This document shows, piece after piece, positions 48,856 to 53,852 of a stretch of 53,852 nt of DNA. The notes beneath the pieces are model-generated. The model saw only the letters and a list, made by a program, of their open reading frames with translations. It searched no databases and was not told the DNA's origin. Numbering within the stretch: position 1 is the stretch's first letter; the number at the start of each line of letters is the position of its first letter. Origin of the DNA: Akkermansiaceae bacterium (GTDB lineage Bacteria > Verrucomicrobiota > Verrucomicrobiia > Verrucomicrobiales > Akkermansiaceae); NCBI GenBank assembly GCA_028822935.1, contig JAPKCM010000032.1, forward strand, positions 1 through 53,852, written 5' to 3'. A program made the translations under genes and the position numbers.

Positions 48856-50703
48856 TTGAGCCAAGAGATCCGCACCACTCCTTCCGACACCTCGGGCATG
48901 CCAACGGGCATCCCCTACATTATTGCCAACGAAGCTGCTGAGCGCTTCAGCTTCTATGGAATGAAGGCAATCCTCTCGATCTTCATGGTCCAATACCTCT
49001 GGCTCATGGGCGATGCCCCGACCGAGCAGATGTCACAAATCGTCGCCAGTGAGAACTACCACAAGTTCAATAAATGGGTCTATGCCACCCCCTTTCTCGG
49101 CGCTCTTCTCGCTGACATATTTTTTGGGAAATATCGCATCATCATGTGGCTCAGCGTTGTTTATTGCGTGGGCCATGGCTGCCTTGCAGTCATGGGAATT
49201 TCCGGTTCCGCCGGATGGTGGCTCTTCGCCGGCCTCGCCCTGATCTGCCTTGGATCCGGAGGTATCAAGCCCTGCGTCTCTGCCCACGTCGGAGACCAAT
49301 TCGGACCGAACAACCAAAATCTCCTCACCAAGGTCTTCAACTGGTTCTACTTTTCAATCAACCTTGGCGCCTTCATCTCGATGCTCGCGACACCATGGTT
49401 TCTTCAATGGTATGGCCCGCACGTCGCCTTCGGTATCCCTGGAATCCTCATGGCCCTTGCCACGTTCTGTTTCTGGTTAGGCCGAAATAAGTTCATCCAC
49501 ATCCAACCCAAACCCCGGGAGTTTAAAAGGGAACTTTTTAGCAAGGAGGGAATCCGGGTCATCCTAAGGCTCCTCCCCCTCTACTTCTTCGTTGCCTTCT
49601 TCTGGGCGCTCTTCGATCAGACCGGTTCTTCTTGGATCTTCCAATCGCAGGATATGGACCGACACCTCATTATCGACTGGCTCCCCTCCCAAATCCAATC
49701 GATCAATTCCGTCCTCATTCTTACGCTTGTTCCTCTTTTCACCTTCGTCGTATACCCCGCGTTAGGAAAAATTATTAAGCTCACCCCGCTTCGTAAGATT
49801 GGTGCCGGACTCTTCATCACCGTTCTCTCTTTCGCTGTCATCGCGCTCATTCAGGTTTCCATCTCAAACGGAGCCACCCCAAATATCGGCTGGCAGTTCT
49901 TCGCCTATCTGATTTTGACCTGTGCCGAAATCATGGTCTCTATCGTTTGCCTCGAATATTCCTACACTCAGGCTCCCCGGAATCTCAAATCATTCATCAT
50001 GGCGATCTTCCTCCTCTCGGTCTCCTTCGGCAATCAGATCACCGAATTCGTCAATTCCTTCATTCAGGTCGAGGACCCCGTTGTCACCTTCGCTGCTGAA
50101 CTTTCCGATGGCGAATATGCCCATCCCGGATTCGATAACGAAATGAATACCACCGACGACATCATCGTCACCCGCAAGGAAGGAAAAACTACCAAGCGTC
50201 AACTACCCGATGAGGAGACCCTCGACCGCGCCGCTGACATCATCACCCTCTGGTCTGAGAATAACGACCTCACTCTACCCACTACCGCGGAAGCTCTCCC
50301 TCTTCTCTCAAGCCTCACCGATCAGTGGGGATCTAAGATAACCTACACCCGCCTCGCTAGTCGAACGGCCCGCATCTCCAGCCCTGGACCTGATAAGAAA
50401 TCCGGAACCCAATGGGATATAGGCTACATCATGGGAGCTCCAGATAAGAGCTCCGGATCAGAGAAAAAGAGCGATCGTAAGACCTGGCTCGAAAAGCGAA
50501 AGGAACAACTCGGTGTGGTCGATGAAGTCACCGCGGCAACTTCACCCATCACTAAATCTACATACACCGGCGGCCAACCCAAGCTTGAAGGCCCGGCTTA
50601 CTACTGGTTCTTCACCGGCCTCATGCTCGCTGCCGCCCTCCTGTTTGTGCCCTATGCCATTTTAACTAAGGAACGAAGCTACCTGCAATCCAGCGAATCA
50701 TGA
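48856..50703 (+). CDS. POT-family peptide/proton symporter with a large inserted domain
   Basis: The membrane part matches proton-dependent oligopeptide transporters: 'IPYIIANEAAERFSFYGMKA', 'GALLADIFFGKYRIIM', 'GSGGIKPCVSAHVGDQF' and 'FYFSINLGAFISM'. Just before the last helix (about 579-602) sits a polar insert of about 170 residues (405-578). Part of it (about 455-526) resembles the calcium-binding C-terminal domain of GspG-type pseudopilins: 'LTDQWGSKITYTRL' then 'ISSPGPDKKSGTQWDIGYI'. The insert should face the periplasm. The start used is TTG; an ATG 14 codons later (48898) also fits. The stop overlaps the tatD start (ATGA), so both are coupled. Confidence 0.88.
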   Translation: MSQEIRTTPSDTSGMPTGIPYIIANEAAERFSFYGMKAILSIFMVQYLWLMGDAPTEQMSQIVASENYHKFNKWVYATPFLGALLADIFFGKYRIIMWLSVVYCVGHGCLAVMGISGSAGWWLFAGLALICLGSGGIKPCVSAHVGDQFGPNNQNLLTKVFNWFYFSINLGAFISMLATPWFLQWYGPHVAFGIPGILMALATFCFWLGRNKFIHIQPKPREFKRELFSKEGIRVILRLLPLYFFVAFFWALFDQTGSSWIFQSQDMDRHLIIDWLPSQIQSINSVLILTLVPLFTFVVYPALGKIIKLTPLRKIGAGLFITVLSFAVIALIQVSISNGATPNIGWQFFAYLILTCAEIMVSIVCLEYSYTQAPRNLKSFIMAIFLLSVSFGNQITEFVNSFIQVEDPVVTFAAELSDGEYAHPGFDNEMNTTDDIIVTRKEGKTTKRQLPDEETLDRAADIITLWSENNDLTLPTTAEALPLLSSLTDQWGSKITYTRLASRTARISSPGPDKKSGTQWDIGYIMGAPDKSSGSEKKSDRKTWLEKRKEQLGVVDEVTAATSPITKSTYTGGQPKLEGPAYYWFFTGLMLAAALLFVPYAILTKERSYLQSSES

Positions 50704-51500
50704 TCGATTCCCATTGCCACCTCGGTTCTCACAAATTCTCTCCTGAGGAAATCCCCCAAATCATCGCGAATGCCAAAGATCATGGCATCACGCGCATGAT
50801 CACCCTTGCCACCAGCGAGGATGACATTTTAACAAATCTTCACCTGGCCCGGACCTACCCCGAAGTCCACGCCTGCCTCGGTATTCATCCCTGTGATGTG
50901 CATGAGACGCGCGATGACTTCGAATCTCTCCTCAGCCCCCACCTCGATGACCCCAAGGTCGCAGCCCTCGGAGAGACCGGCCTCGATTATTTCCATCCCG
51001 CCCCAGAAGGATGGACCGATGAAAACTACCATGCCCGACAGCGCGATTTTCTGCGTCGCCATTTCCAACTCGCCAGGAAGCACGGCCTCAATATCGTCAT
51101 CCATACTCGCGACAAAAGAGGTTCGGCCAGCTTCGATGACGCCCTCGAAATCTACCGCGAGTTCCACGAATCAGTACGGGCAGTTTTCCACTGCTTCCCG
51201 GGCCCCTTCGAACAAGCCGAAAAAGTCATCTTGCTGGGAGGTCTCATTTCCTTCACCGGAATCGTAACCTTTAAAAATGCCCGTCAAGTGATAGAGACCG
51301 CCCAAGCCTGCCTCTCCGGCAGCTTCATGGTAGAGACCGATTCTCCTTACCTCACACCAGTTCCTCATCGAGGAAAACGCTGTGAGCCCGCCTTCACTAA
51401 ATTCACGGGAGAGCGCATTGCCGAGCTGCGAAATCAAACAATTGAAGAGGTATCGAGGGAAACAGACGATGCTTGCTGCTGTTTTTTTCGCGTTACTTAA
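50700..51500 (+). CDS. TatD family metal-dependent hydrolase
   Basis: A TIM-barrel metal hydrolase of the TatD type (DNase/peptidase-like). Metal ligands are visible: H5 and H7 in 'MIDSHCHLGSH', Glu in 'ALGETGLDYFH', His in 'IVIHTRDKRGSASF', His in 'AVFHCFPGPFEQA' and Asp in 'MVETDSPYLTPVPHRGKRC'. The length (266) is normal. The last residues 'DACCCFFRVT' end early after a run of seven T (51484-51490). With one T fewer the frame would read 'FFALLKTNQGK' and run to 51558, closer to a family-like end. The body is intact either way. The start overlaps the POT stop by four bases. Confidence 0.9.
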   Translation: MIDSHCHLGSHKFSPEEIPQIIANAKDHGITRMITLATSEDDILTNLHLARTYPEVHACLGIHPCDVHETRDDFESLLSPHLDDPKVAALGETGLDYFHPAPEGWTDENYHARQRDFLRRHFQLARKHGLNIVIHTRDKRGSASFDDALEIYREFHESVRAVFHCFPGPFEQAEKVILLGGLISFTGIVTFKNARQVIETAQACLSGSFMVETDSPYLTPVPHRGKRCEPAFTKFTGERIAELRNQTIEEVSRETDDACCCFFRVT

Positions 51501-51602: not shown

Positions 51603-52028
51603 ATGAAAGCAAACTTCATCCCGCTGCTCGCCCTCTTCCCACTTGGCTTTTTAGCCTCCTGTAACTCGCCGAAGCAGACCCCTGCAGCTCCGCCTCTCGG
51701 TGCTCCAATGTCAGAAAATCCCTACGGTGTGCCGCAGATAAACCCTTATGGCGCGCCCGGAGCAAACCCCGCTTACACTCCGGAAGCGGAAGCACCCTAT
51801 CAGCCGATCAATCCTCCTGCAGGAATCGCTCCCTACAATCCGGCCACCAACGTCCCAATAGCACCGGCTCCAGCCGCTGGAGCTCGGACCCACACCATTG
51901 TCAAAGGAGAATCCCTTTGGGGAATTTCCCGAAAGTATGGCGTCACCATTGATGGACTTCGTCAGGCAAACAATCTCACGGGCGACACCATCATCGAAGG
52001 ACGGGCACTGACCATCCCTGCAAACTAA
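51603..52028 (+). CDS. LysM domain lipoprotein
   Basis: A lipoprotein signal ends in 'LGFLASC' (Cys20). A Pro/Ala/Asn/Tyr-rich linker follows (about 25-90, with repeated N-P-Y-G and A-P-Y-x-P motifs). The C-terminal LysM domain (about 94-139) reads 'HTIVKGESLWGISRKYGVTI' and binds peptidoglycan N-acetylglucosamine chains. The linker can span from the membrane to the cell wall. No catalytic domain is attached. The gene has its own terminator and no close operon partner. Confidence 0.92.
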   Translation: MKANFIPLLALFPLGFLASCNSPKQTPAAPPLGAPMSENPYGVPQINPYGAPGANPAYTPEAEAPYQPINPPAGIAPYNPATNVPIAPAPAAGARTHTIVKGESLWGISRKYGVTIDGLRQANNLTGDTIIEGRALTIPAN

Positions 52029-52091: not shown

Positions 52092-53045
52092 ATGAAAGTA
52101 ATTCTCATCTCCCTCCTTCTTGGCTCACTGCTCACAGCGAAGGAACCTCCAGATCCCCAACTGCTCATCGAACAACTCTTCGAGCAACGCGAACCCAAAT
52201 CCTTCGAAGAAGCCTACAAAAAAGCAATCGCCGGCGGCGTGCCCATGCAAACTCTCGTCGAAGCTAGATTTCTTTATATTGTCGACACCGGTAACAACAC
52301 CGATCTCGCAGCTTACGTCCCGGTTCTTGAAGAACAGGCCCGCAAGTTTTCACTCGATGACTCCATCGCTTTTGCCGTGCCCGAAGATTTTCTCGCCATC
52401 GTGGAATATGCCAAAGCCATCGCGGCTTTCGAAAAAGACGATCGCTCCACCTTCAAAAAACACATCACGGAAGCCTTCTGGTTGTCCCCTACCCAATCCG
52501 TAATCTTTGGAAAACTAGTCGATGAAGTGCGCCTAAAAGACGCCATGGAAAAACTGAAGATCGACATGAACCGCACTCTCGTTTCACAAGATCCAGCGAA
52601 GCCTTCGAAGCCACTCAAGGAACACCTTGGAGAGAGCAAGGTCATCCTCTTACACTTCTGGTCTCCATGGGCACGTGAGTCGATGGAGAGCATGGAGGAT
52701 TTTTTTCTTACCGCAAAGGAGCTCAAAAAAAATAAAATTTCCGTCGTCTCGGTCCTTCTTTCTGGAGCTCCGGAATCACGTGCCGATGGTGATGATTTCA
52801 TCAAAGAGAAAAAGACCGCCAGCGCCGCTTCATGGTTAGTCGATTCTTCAAAGGGAGCCATGGAATCACTCCTTCGCATTCAGGCCTTTCCTACCGTAGT
52901 TCTCTTATCCAAGGAGGGAAAAGTGCTCTTCAACGGTCATCCGGCAAGCGATACTTTTTGGCGCGAATTAAAAAACATCGAAGCCAAGATCGAGCAACCA
53001 CCAGCGCCTGTTAGAGAGGAACTACCGACTCTCGAAACGGAGTGA
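52092..53045 (+). CDS. Secreted thioredoxin-fold (TlpA-like) protein lacking both active-site cysteines
   Basis: A signal peptide (about 1-16) leads into an alpha-helical region (about 20-165) with little resemblance to known domains. A thioredoxin-like domain follows (about 170-300). The catalytic W-C-x-x-C site is replaced by 'FWSPWARESMES' (W193-A-R-E-S197). Before the cis-Pro strand the usual 'FPTVVLLSKEGKVLFNG' is kept. Redox exchange is therefore unlikely; a binding or chaperone role is more plausible (inference). It starts 4 bases after the preceding terminator, so transcription must begin inside or just before the hairpin, or depend on readthrough. Confidence 0.75.
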   Translation: MKVILISLLLGSLLTAKEPPDPQLLIEQLFEQREPKSFEEAYKKAIAGGVPMQTLVEARFLYIVDTGNNTDLAAYVPVLEEQARKFSLDDSIAFAVPEDFLAIVEYAKAIAAFEKDDRSTFKKHITEAFWLSPTQSVIFGKLVDEVRLKDAMEKLKIDMNRTLVSQDPAKPSKPLKEHLGESKVILLHFWSPWARESMESMEDFFLTAKELKKNKISVVSVLLSGAPESRADGDDFIKEKKTASAASWLVDSSKGAMESLLRIQAFPTVVLLSKEGKVLFNGHPASDTFWRELKNIEAKIEQPPAPVREELPTLETE

Positions 53046-53125
53046 ATCATGCTCCCACAAGAGGCTCGGAGTGTTTCATAAAGAAAGATTAACCTTGATC
53101 TTTTATAAAATGTTCCGCTCTTTAG

Positions 53126-53852
53126 ATGGCAGCTACATTTAAAAAGACAATGCGTATCATTCAACCCCCTACTCCTCAAGAACTACAAGTCCTCTCGGTC
53201 TTGTGGAACGAGGGTCCAAGTACGGTGGCATTCGTACATGATTTTCTTTATGGTGACACTCTCGCTTACACCACCTCTCTCGCAGTCCTCAGAAATCTTG
53301 AAAAGAAGGGATTGGCTTCACGTCGCAAAGAAGGGCGCGCTCACATTTACGAATCAGAGGTAGATCGCTCAGTTGTTCTTGAGCCAAAACTAAAAGAACT
53401 CATACAATATCCTTTCGGAGGAAGCCTCGGTGAGGCTATGCTCTCCTTGATCTCGATTGGCGTATTAACGCCGGAAGAGAAGTCCGCACTCACGCGGACT
53501 CTTAAAAAGCATAAAGCCATGCCAGCCAAAAAGAAGACCACAAAAAAGAAAGCTGCCAAAAAAGCAGCTCCCAAGAAGCCCGTTAAGAAAGCCGCCAAGA
53601 AAAAGGTAGCAACGAAAGCGGCAAGCAAGCCTGCCAAAAAGGCGGCTAAGAAGAAAGTAGCTAAGAAAGCCACCCCTAAAAAGGTCGCCAAAAAAGTTAC
53701 CAAAAAGAAAGCAGCTAAAAGAGCAGCCCCTAAAAAGGTCGCCAAAAAAGCTACCAAAAAGAAAGCAGCTAAAAAAGCGGCCCCTAAAAAAGCAGCCAAG
53801 AAAAAGGTAGCCAAGAAAGCCGCACCTAAAAAAGCAGCTAAGAAAAAGGTAG
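53126..53852 (+). CDS. BlaI/MecI-type regulator fused to a histone-H1-like tail (runs off the window)
   Basis: Residues about 13-80 are a BlaI/MecI winged helix: 'PTPQELQVLSVLWNEGPSTV', 'AYTTSLAVLRNLEKKGLASR' and 'EGRAHIYE'. Such repressors control beta-lactamase-type and heme-peptidase genes. Residues about 85-128 include a helix pair that could be the dimerisation part. From about residue 130 the protein is almost only Lys, Ala, Pro, Thr and Val in short repeats (KKAAPKK, AKKKVAKK), like bacterial H1-type histones. The frame is open to the last base, so the C-terminus is missing. Partner genes such as an M56 peptidase would be expected further right and are not visible. Confidence 0.85.
   Translation, partial: MAATFKKTMRIIQPPTPQELQVLSVLWNEGPSTVAFVHDFLYGDTLAYTTSLAVLRNLEKKGLASRRKEGRAHIYESEVDRSVVLEPKLKELIQYPFGGSLGEAMLSLISIGVLTPEEKSALTRTLKKHKAMPAKKKTTKKKAAKKAAPKKPVKKAAKKKVATKAASKPAKKAAKKKVAKKATPKKVAKKVTKKKAAKRAAPKKVAKKATKKKAAKKAAPKKAAKKKVAKKAAPKKAAKKKV
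53520..53852 (+). repeat. Lysine/alanine-rich coding repeat array
   Basis: Short repeated units encoding A-K-K-K-V/A-A-K-K-A and A-A/T-P-K-K fill the end of the window and continue past it. Two copies of about 60 bases (starting near 53671 and 53728) are almost identical, which makes this a candidate site for repeat-number change. Confidence 0.8.

Follow-up and report, generated by a model that had tools for sequence, protein, structure and literature searches.

A BlaI/MecI-type repressor gene of Akkermansiaceae with a histone-H1-like tail that is probably also made as a separate protein

The last gene of the DNA analyzed here (the window: 53,852 nucleotides, i.e., contig C17 in an assembly of 156 contigs and 4.59 Mb) joins a BlaI/MecI-type repressor head, in frame, to a lysine/alanine-rich tail that resembles histone H1. 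From sequence comparison with related genomes, we conclude that this is probably one gene with two products, namely the BlaI-H1 repressor at full length and, translated from an internal start codon, the H1-like part as a free protein. We estimate the probability of this reading at roughly 0.7. The elements involved are as follows:

50700-51500, + strand: TatD-type nuclease neighbour (PF01026; 44 of 81 loci)
51603-52028, + strand: LysM protein neighbour (PF01476; 45 of 81 loci)
52092-53045, + strand: thioredoxin-like neighbour (PF13905; adjoins the fusion in 52 of 81 loci)
53084-53103, + strand: candidate operator dyad before the head, with 6-bp arms (dyad inspection, no control set)
53126-53518, + strand: BlaI/MecI-type winged-helix head, in frame with the tail, starting at 53126 or 53150 (PF03965, Foldseek, orthologues)
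53451-53480, + strand: RNA hairpin P1, with a UCUC/GAGA outer stem and an inner stem of 5-7 bp (covariation, folding)
53481-53500, + strand: RNA hairpin P2, 7 bp in the window genome (folding; weaker support than P1)
53501-53518, + strand: A-rich stretch before the internal ATG (base composition)
53519-53521, + strand: internal ATG, the proposed start of the free H1-like protein (kept Met; stand-alone starts)
53519-53852, + strand: first 111 codons of the histone-H1-like Lys/Ala repeat tail, continued on bases 64-170 of contig C119

In the window, the frame is free of stop codons from 53126 to 53851, i.e., for 242 codons up to the contig end. Contig C17 stops within the Lys/Ala tail, and contig C119 opens with the same repeat; the two share an exact overlap of 55 bases, and the stop codon lies on C119. 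The joined open frame encodes at least 277 residues, with a tail of 146 residues; more repeats than counted here may lie across the join. The original prediction had looked to the sequence past 53852 for the tail length, and this is where the tail now ends. As for the start of the head, the positions used in relatives are closer to 53150 than to 53126. The tail from the Met at 53519 is made of Lys, Ala, Pro, Val and Thr, plus one Ser and one Arg; of its 146 residues, 72 are Lys and 45 Ala and none is acidic, giving a net charge of +73, as befits the H1-like character ascribed to it. The curated model NF038053, which is named for Burkholderia-type proteins, scored 20.7 bits on the tail, below its cut-off of 80.

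The fusion is widespread. Orthologues of the head (E <= 4.1e-22) were found in 83 of 145 genomes of the family, including the window genome, and in 8 of 16 genera, in open frames of 133-311 residues; 22 further genomes gave weaker matches only. Because six of the 83 are single-contig assemblies (G019, G036, G048, G082, G098 and G131), the fusion is not an assembly artefact. The first set of loci comprised 81, i.e., the window and 80 of the other 82, two having been fetched later. A Lys-rich tail follows the head in all of them but G139, which is cut off at the junction by the end of its contig and was left out of the alignment of 80 orthologues; the tail of G088 is short and mixed. Thus, Lys/Ala-tailed BlaI proteins are indeed found in relatives. 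A stop or frame break between residues 125 and 135, which had been named as the finding that would undo the prediction, occurs in none of the 80. Sixty-six of these genes are complete and 14 end at a contig break, which indicates that the tail repeat breaks assemblies.

The length of the tail varies quickly, as had been anticipated from its repeats: behind heads that are 95-96% identical in nucleotides we found tails of 92 versus 154 and 159 residues. This supports a fast turnover of repeats as in chlamydial Hc2, the size of which reportedly varies with the number of lysine-rich pentamers (PMC2848022). In G090 (L099) the tail seems to switch frame late, continuing as a Lys/Gln/Leu/Arg/Pro repeat.

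The gene order TatD - LysM - thioredoxin-like - fusion recurs among the 81 loci, in counts where antisense shadow open frames mask some neighbours; the genes downstream of the fusion vary from genus to genus. PADLOC returned no defence system. In six of eight loci of genus g10 (e.g., L094), the fusion lies instead beside an enzyme of about 950 residues that resembles pyruvate phosphate dikinase and in G010 has a Lys/Ala-rich N-terminus. Genus g3, with 20 nearly complete genomes, has no head match at E <= 1e-12, the thioredoxin-like gene is absent from three g3 genomes tested for it, and an H1-like match from three tested for that. Lastly, G250 (L186), which is assigned to family f2, carries the locus in its Akkermansiaceae-family version; the thioredoxin-like neighbour there shows 95% identity over 100 residues, and this locus reflects either mis-binning or transfer.

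The assignment of the head is borne out by both profile and structure. Residues 16-127 match Pfam PF03965 (Penicillinase_R) with 71.3 bits against a cut-off of 22.6, covering profile positions 2-114 of 115. In a Foldseek search with the AlphaFold model of the head, ranks 1-12 in the PDB are all MecI and BlaI (E 6e-6 to 7e-5), with MecI 1okr/1sax at the top and BlaI 1sd4/1xsd lower down. The mean pLDDT of the model is 74.3, with 77-93 over residues 11-90 (by block); the C-terminal dimer helices are predicted with a pLDDT of only 43-57 from residue 91 onward. The head is under purifying selection at the protein level, with an amino-acid identity of 0.74-0.80 at a synonymous difference of 0.36-0.53, and is 79% identical in an Akkermansiaceae MAG.

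Its surroundings differ from those of a classical BlaI. A neighbouring M56 peptidase, which the original prediction had thought possible, does not adjoin the fusion in any of the 14 genomes covered by the M56 profile search; the neighbour clusters of the 81 loci were compared without an M56 model. The M56 family is present in 13 of these 14 genomes, and its 24 matches all lie at least 80 kb from the fusion or on another contig, in which case the assemblies do not give the true distance. The window genome also encodes a canonical pair elsewhere, i.e., a second, tail-less BlaI on contig C120 that adjoins an M56 gene. Many members of the BlaI/MecI/CopY family are likewise orphans without an M56 partner. 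At what we take to be the position of the Asn-Phe cleavage pair of BlaI/MecI in the alignment, the head has Ser-Leu. The classical BlaI operator is TACA-n-TGTA, and this motif, with a spacing of 1-3, was absent between -200 and +30 of the head in all 81 loci. Dyads similar to or longer than that at 53084-53103 precede the head in some relatives and not in all, and none of them fits TACA-n-TGTA. In relatives these dyads are near a recurring CTTGAC/CTTGA element that is -35-like; G006 has a perfect dyad with 11-bp arms, and in some g10 genomes two dyad arms are about 35 bases apart.

We turn now to the internal ATG. A Met opens the tail in 72 of the 80 aligned orthologues, the others having Leu (five), Ala, Lys or Arg, and no second Met occurs in any of the 80 tails. 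The codon directly after this ATG is GCT in 67 of the 72; it is CCA in the window genome. Tail length follows the presence of the codon. The median is 128 residues with the ATG (54-176, n = 58 complete genes) and 35 without it (24-116, n = 8; Mann-Whitney p 1.1e-5), six of the latter eight belonging to one genus, so that few independent events are involved. G015 and G034 are exceptions, with longer tails of 116 and 70 residues and no Met. A long separate H1-like gene that might compensate was not detected in seven of the eight genomes without the ATG, and G023 gave a weak match, in a search insensitive enough to miss the known tails of G010 and G067.

In the sister genera g9, g12 and g14 there is no match to the head at the orthologue level. 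The thioredoxin-like gene was sought in 23 genomes (three of them from g3) and found in 19, all from g9, g12 and g14. In 16 of these 19, the next gene encodes a stand-alone Lys/Ala protein of 118-247 residues, which begins with MAAKKK or a near variant (MPKK, MATKKK, MPAKKK, MAKKK). The gap between the two genes is about 180-360 bases, too short for a head. As to the other three, the contig of G060 ends past the thioredoxin-like gene, and in G072 and G032 no such gene lies within the fetched stretch. On longer stretches of G009 and G014, TatD, LysM, the thioredoxin-like gene and the H1-like gene all follow one another in this order. In 13 of the 16 stand-alone genes, no possible start precedes the codon that opens M(A/P).KK in its frame; an earlier start is possible in G041, G050 and G080. 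Four g9 leaders end in AGCC-ATGGCAGCAAA, like AAAGCC-ATGGCTGCAAA in the fused genes. In a tree of TatD, most fused rows are separate from g9, g12 and g14, and the fused label requires four changes; G067 and G015 form long branches, and g3, which lacks the gene, and the outgroup f6 fall on the fused side. This tree is without five outgroup rows for which no sequence was extracted.

A related arrangement is seen outside the family. Ten loci of families f3 and f6 were fetched, a subset of those listed. Eight of them (seven f3, one f6) encode a related head, then a linker that differs in length and sequence from that of the Akkermansiaceae family, then a Met and a Lys/Ala tail, i.e., Met opens the tail in all eight intact tailed genes fetched. 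In G163, AAGGAG ends nine bases upstream of this ATG. In the other two, the head is broken by a frameshift (G154) or the tail is lacking (G146). None of the eight loci has TatD, LysM or thioredoxin neighbours. Five relatives from other families (G258, G233, G295, G213 and G260) have no tail.

Judged by its start and its stand-alone counterparts, then, the tail has the look of an independent gene. With this, the original prediction stands as regards the BlaI head, the H1-like tail and their fusion, and gives way on two points: the M56 neighbour, and the view of the tail as a mere appendage, given that sister genera have it as a separate gene and that the fused genes retain a start codon and a constrained leader. 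Its suggestions that the protein spreads from operators or tunes nucleoid structure are, for now, conjectures.

The constraint on this leader was seen in synonymous sites. In g7 and g13 (37 genomes), the synonymous difference is 0.51-0.55 over codon columns 14-98, 0.32 over columns 99-116 and 0.18 over columns 117-134; past the Met, it is 0.25 in the first codons and 0.48 in the later tail. For the same regions, g1 gives 0.47-0.57, 0.43, 0.31, 0.12 and 0.37, i.e., the strong part is shorter and codons 99-116 are hardly constrained. In g16 the values are 0.49 and 0.23, then 0.28, 0.16, 0.00 and 0.28, with the fall beginning already at codons 56-98. In 10-codon windows, the end of the head reaches 0.12 in g7 and g13, 0.25 then 0.17 in g1, and 0.09 in g16. 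Mann-Whitney tests on codon columns gave p values of 2e-11 (g7 and g13), 7.5e-6 (g1) and 0.002 (g16), which are guides, as the columns were treated as independent though they are not. The same test showed no fall in the six g10 genomes without the ATG (p 0.70). As a control, the neighbouring TatD, LysM and thioredoxin-like genes were compared within the same genera (6-27 genomes each; no TatD for g1); their values are 0.31-0.70 in every 20-codon window, and they show no fall. Thus, the sites are constrained in four genera, and in two of them the constrained part reaches about 105 bases (about 35 codons) before the ATG.

Within this stretch lies P1, some 68 to 39 bases upstream of the ATG and inside the coding sequence of the head; P2 follows it in many species. 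P1 was assessed in 72 sequences, 68 of them distinct, against 500 shuffles. Its cells are paired in 82.9% of cases versus 77.8% in shuffles (reached by 0 of 500), changes on both sides of a pair occur in 44 cells versus 16.0 (0 of 500; 3-21 in slid controls), and its covariation is 0.191 versus 0.103 (0 of 500). Six pairs have both-sided changes versus 3.6 in shuffles, a value equalled by eight of 500. Partners slid along the alignment are paired in 37-57%. The strongest covariation (columns 9-36, 15-30 and 18-27) links third codon positions. The two pairs at the inner end of P1 do not form in 42 and 44 of the 68 rows. P2 is paired in 84.7% of cells in one register in g1, its register shifting between species. 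For P1 and P2 together in g1, three of five measures beat every shuffle, and the other two are ordinary (70 and 155 of 500). With all 72 rows RNAalifold retained only the four outer pairs of P1; for g1 it predicted P1 plus a pairing of the 5' arm of P2 with bases just past the ATG. The window RNA at 53448-53524 folds far better than its shuffles (z -3.97, 0 of 200). In the stand-alone genes the leaders are mixed, and no P1 common to them was found.

Other candidates for the stretch were considered. Rfam gave three sub-threshold matches, including FourU at 53429-53489, which score 15.7-17.6 bits where the gathering scores are 44-60; a known RNA family was set aside on this basis. By eye, with no statistic, an alternative-frame leader peptide or an antisense gene was discarded, the frames not being visibly conserved; nor was an internal promoter recognised by eye.

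Around the internal ATG, the RNA from -30 to +12 shows less structure than its synonymous shuffles do in 18 of 18 g7, 21 of 21 g13 and 15 of 19 g1 sequences, in both g10 and all three g11 sequences with the ATG, and in five of seven f3 and the one f6 sequence; the counts are 0 of 11 for g16, one of two for g8 and 0 of 1 for G250. No trend of this kind is seen where the ATG is lacking (g10 three of six, g11 0 of 1, g15 0 of 1). The result depends on the window chosen in g1 (five of 19 for -18 to +18, two of 19 for -36 to +21) and g16 (two of 11 and seven of nine), while g7 and g13 stay complete in all start windows. The fraction of A in the 30 bases before the ATG is 0.37-0.53 in the groups that have it versus 0.21-0.29 in heads (g1: 0.40 versus 0.28); the g10 sequences without the ATG are also A-rich there (0.41 versus 0.24). 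A Shine-Dalgarno sequence was not seen at the internal ATG in the fused genes of the Akkermansiaceae family. The leaders of the stand-alone genes are A/C-rich, and at the usual spacing a clear Shine-Dalgarno is not seen in them either; its lack in the fused genes is therefore no argument against an internal start.

Taken together, these data suggest the following scheme. Initiation at the upstream start would yield the full-length BlaI-fold repressor with its Lys/Ala tail, which would be expected to bind as dimers of the BlaI type, the two basic tails of each dimer holding it on DNA non-specifically. Ribosomes starting at the ATG at 53519 would yield the tail alone, i.e., a free H1-like DNA-packing protein parallel to what sister genera make from their stand-alone gene at this locus, and both products would be made. 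The leader of the free protein, consisting of the hairpin and the A-rich stretch, would be written in the synonymous positions of the last codons of the repressor. A shorter mRNA may have its 5' end at P1, or P1 may keep the ribosome site open; in either way it might set the ratio of the products. The dyad at 53084-53103 may be an autoregulatory operator through which the head represses its own promoter. A more elaborate version of this scheme, which we regard as tentative and rather less likely than not to hold in full, is a dual-coding chromatin switch: the structured leader in the repressor's last codons would set the balance between tethered repressor and free H1-like protein, the head would control its own promoter, and nucleoid packing would be coupled to a specific regulon via one mRNA.

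The best-surviving alternative to two products is that there is a single one, a BlaI repressor whose H1-like tail gives it a tighter hold on DNA, with the Met as a relic of the fusion. This would agree with the uninterrupted frame of all 80 aligned orthologues, with the missing Shine-Dalgarno, and with six g10 members, G015 and G034, which retain head and tail without the Met. A relic, however, would not constrain synonymous sites on both sides of itself in four genera, nor preserve ATG-GCT in 67 of 80 genes or a covarying hairpin, and we consider this explanation improbable.

Somewhat less probable still is that the constraint reflects a DNA or RNA element that serves something else, e.g., a protein-binding site, a small RNA or an internal promoter for downstream genes, unconnected to translation of the tail. 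That in g7 and g13 both P1 and the constraint extend some 105 bases upstream, beyond what a ribosome site needs, and that the stand-alone leaders have no common P1, would fit such an element; against it, the constraint runs through the first codons past the ATG and fades in the later tail, is not seen in the six g10 genomes without the ATG, and is accompanied by downstream genes that differ among genera and by no match at an Rfam gathering score. Lastly, that only the free H1-like protein matters, the head being a weak or decaying regulator left in frame, is very improbable: 16 genomes of g9, g12 and g14 do have no room for a head at the locus, but the heads are under purifying selection, persist in 83 of 145 genomes, and are kept in frame across linkers of different length in f3 and f6.

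Lys/Ala stretches were also noted in other proteins of the family. On contig C138 of the window genome (L043:1450-3336, +) a sigma factor, presumably of the housekeeping sigma-70 type, has an N-terminal Lys/Ala/Pro repeat tail beginning MAKKKTAAKKAAP. L237 (G008) and L244 (G009) encode zinc-finger proteins with N-terminal Lys/Ala tails of about 200 residues, which from their motif we take to be DksA/TraR-like. H1-like tails thus seem to be present on several transcription proteins of the family. L044:1252-1722 (-), L204:5216-5554 (-) and L250 encode small proteins in which a Lys/Ala stretch precedes a C-terminal domain that we assume to resemble DUF2934.

If the two-product reading is correct, this is a nested gene whose leader lies in the synonymous codons of another protein, and a sequence-specific repressor is tied to a general DNA-packing protein via one frame. 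Read as a single open frame, the locus would be taken for one repressor, and a histone-like protein that is openly encoded in sister genera would be missed. The natural losses of the ATG are ready controls.

The components of this gene are of known kinds, i.e., a BlaI-family head, an H1-like tail and a proposed internal start, and it is their combination that is described here; in the titles and abstract openings found by searches of open-access papers, we recognised no report of a BlaI head joined to an H1-like tail. The head is a BlaI/MecI/CopY-family domain, with the same domain at full length (PF03965) and the same winged-helix fold. It misses three features of the classical BlaR-BlaI circuit, namely an adjoining M56 gene, a TACA-TGTA operator and the Asn-Phe pair, in place of which it has Ser-Leu; unlike the classical proteins, it carries a long basic tail. 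Chlamydial Hc2 (PMC2848022) and Pseudomonas AlgP (PMC9239181) are reported to be lysine-rich and H1-like, as is the tail; here, the H1-like part stands in frame behind a repressor, and alone in sister genera. Mycobacterial HupB/MDP1 (PMC5676037, PMC5974015) likewise reportedly joins a C-terminal tail, described as eukaryotic-like or disordered, to a DNA-binding head. In that protein the head is HU, whereas here it is a winged-helix repressor.

Internal in-frame starts occur in bacterial genes such as those for CheA, IF2 and ClpB, and the short form of AerR reportedly also arises from one. The AerR isoforms (PMC6199135) are a bacterial example of two proteins from one frame. In contrast to internal starts of the AerR type, the short product proposed here resembles a separate gene, which sister genera have on its own at this locus.
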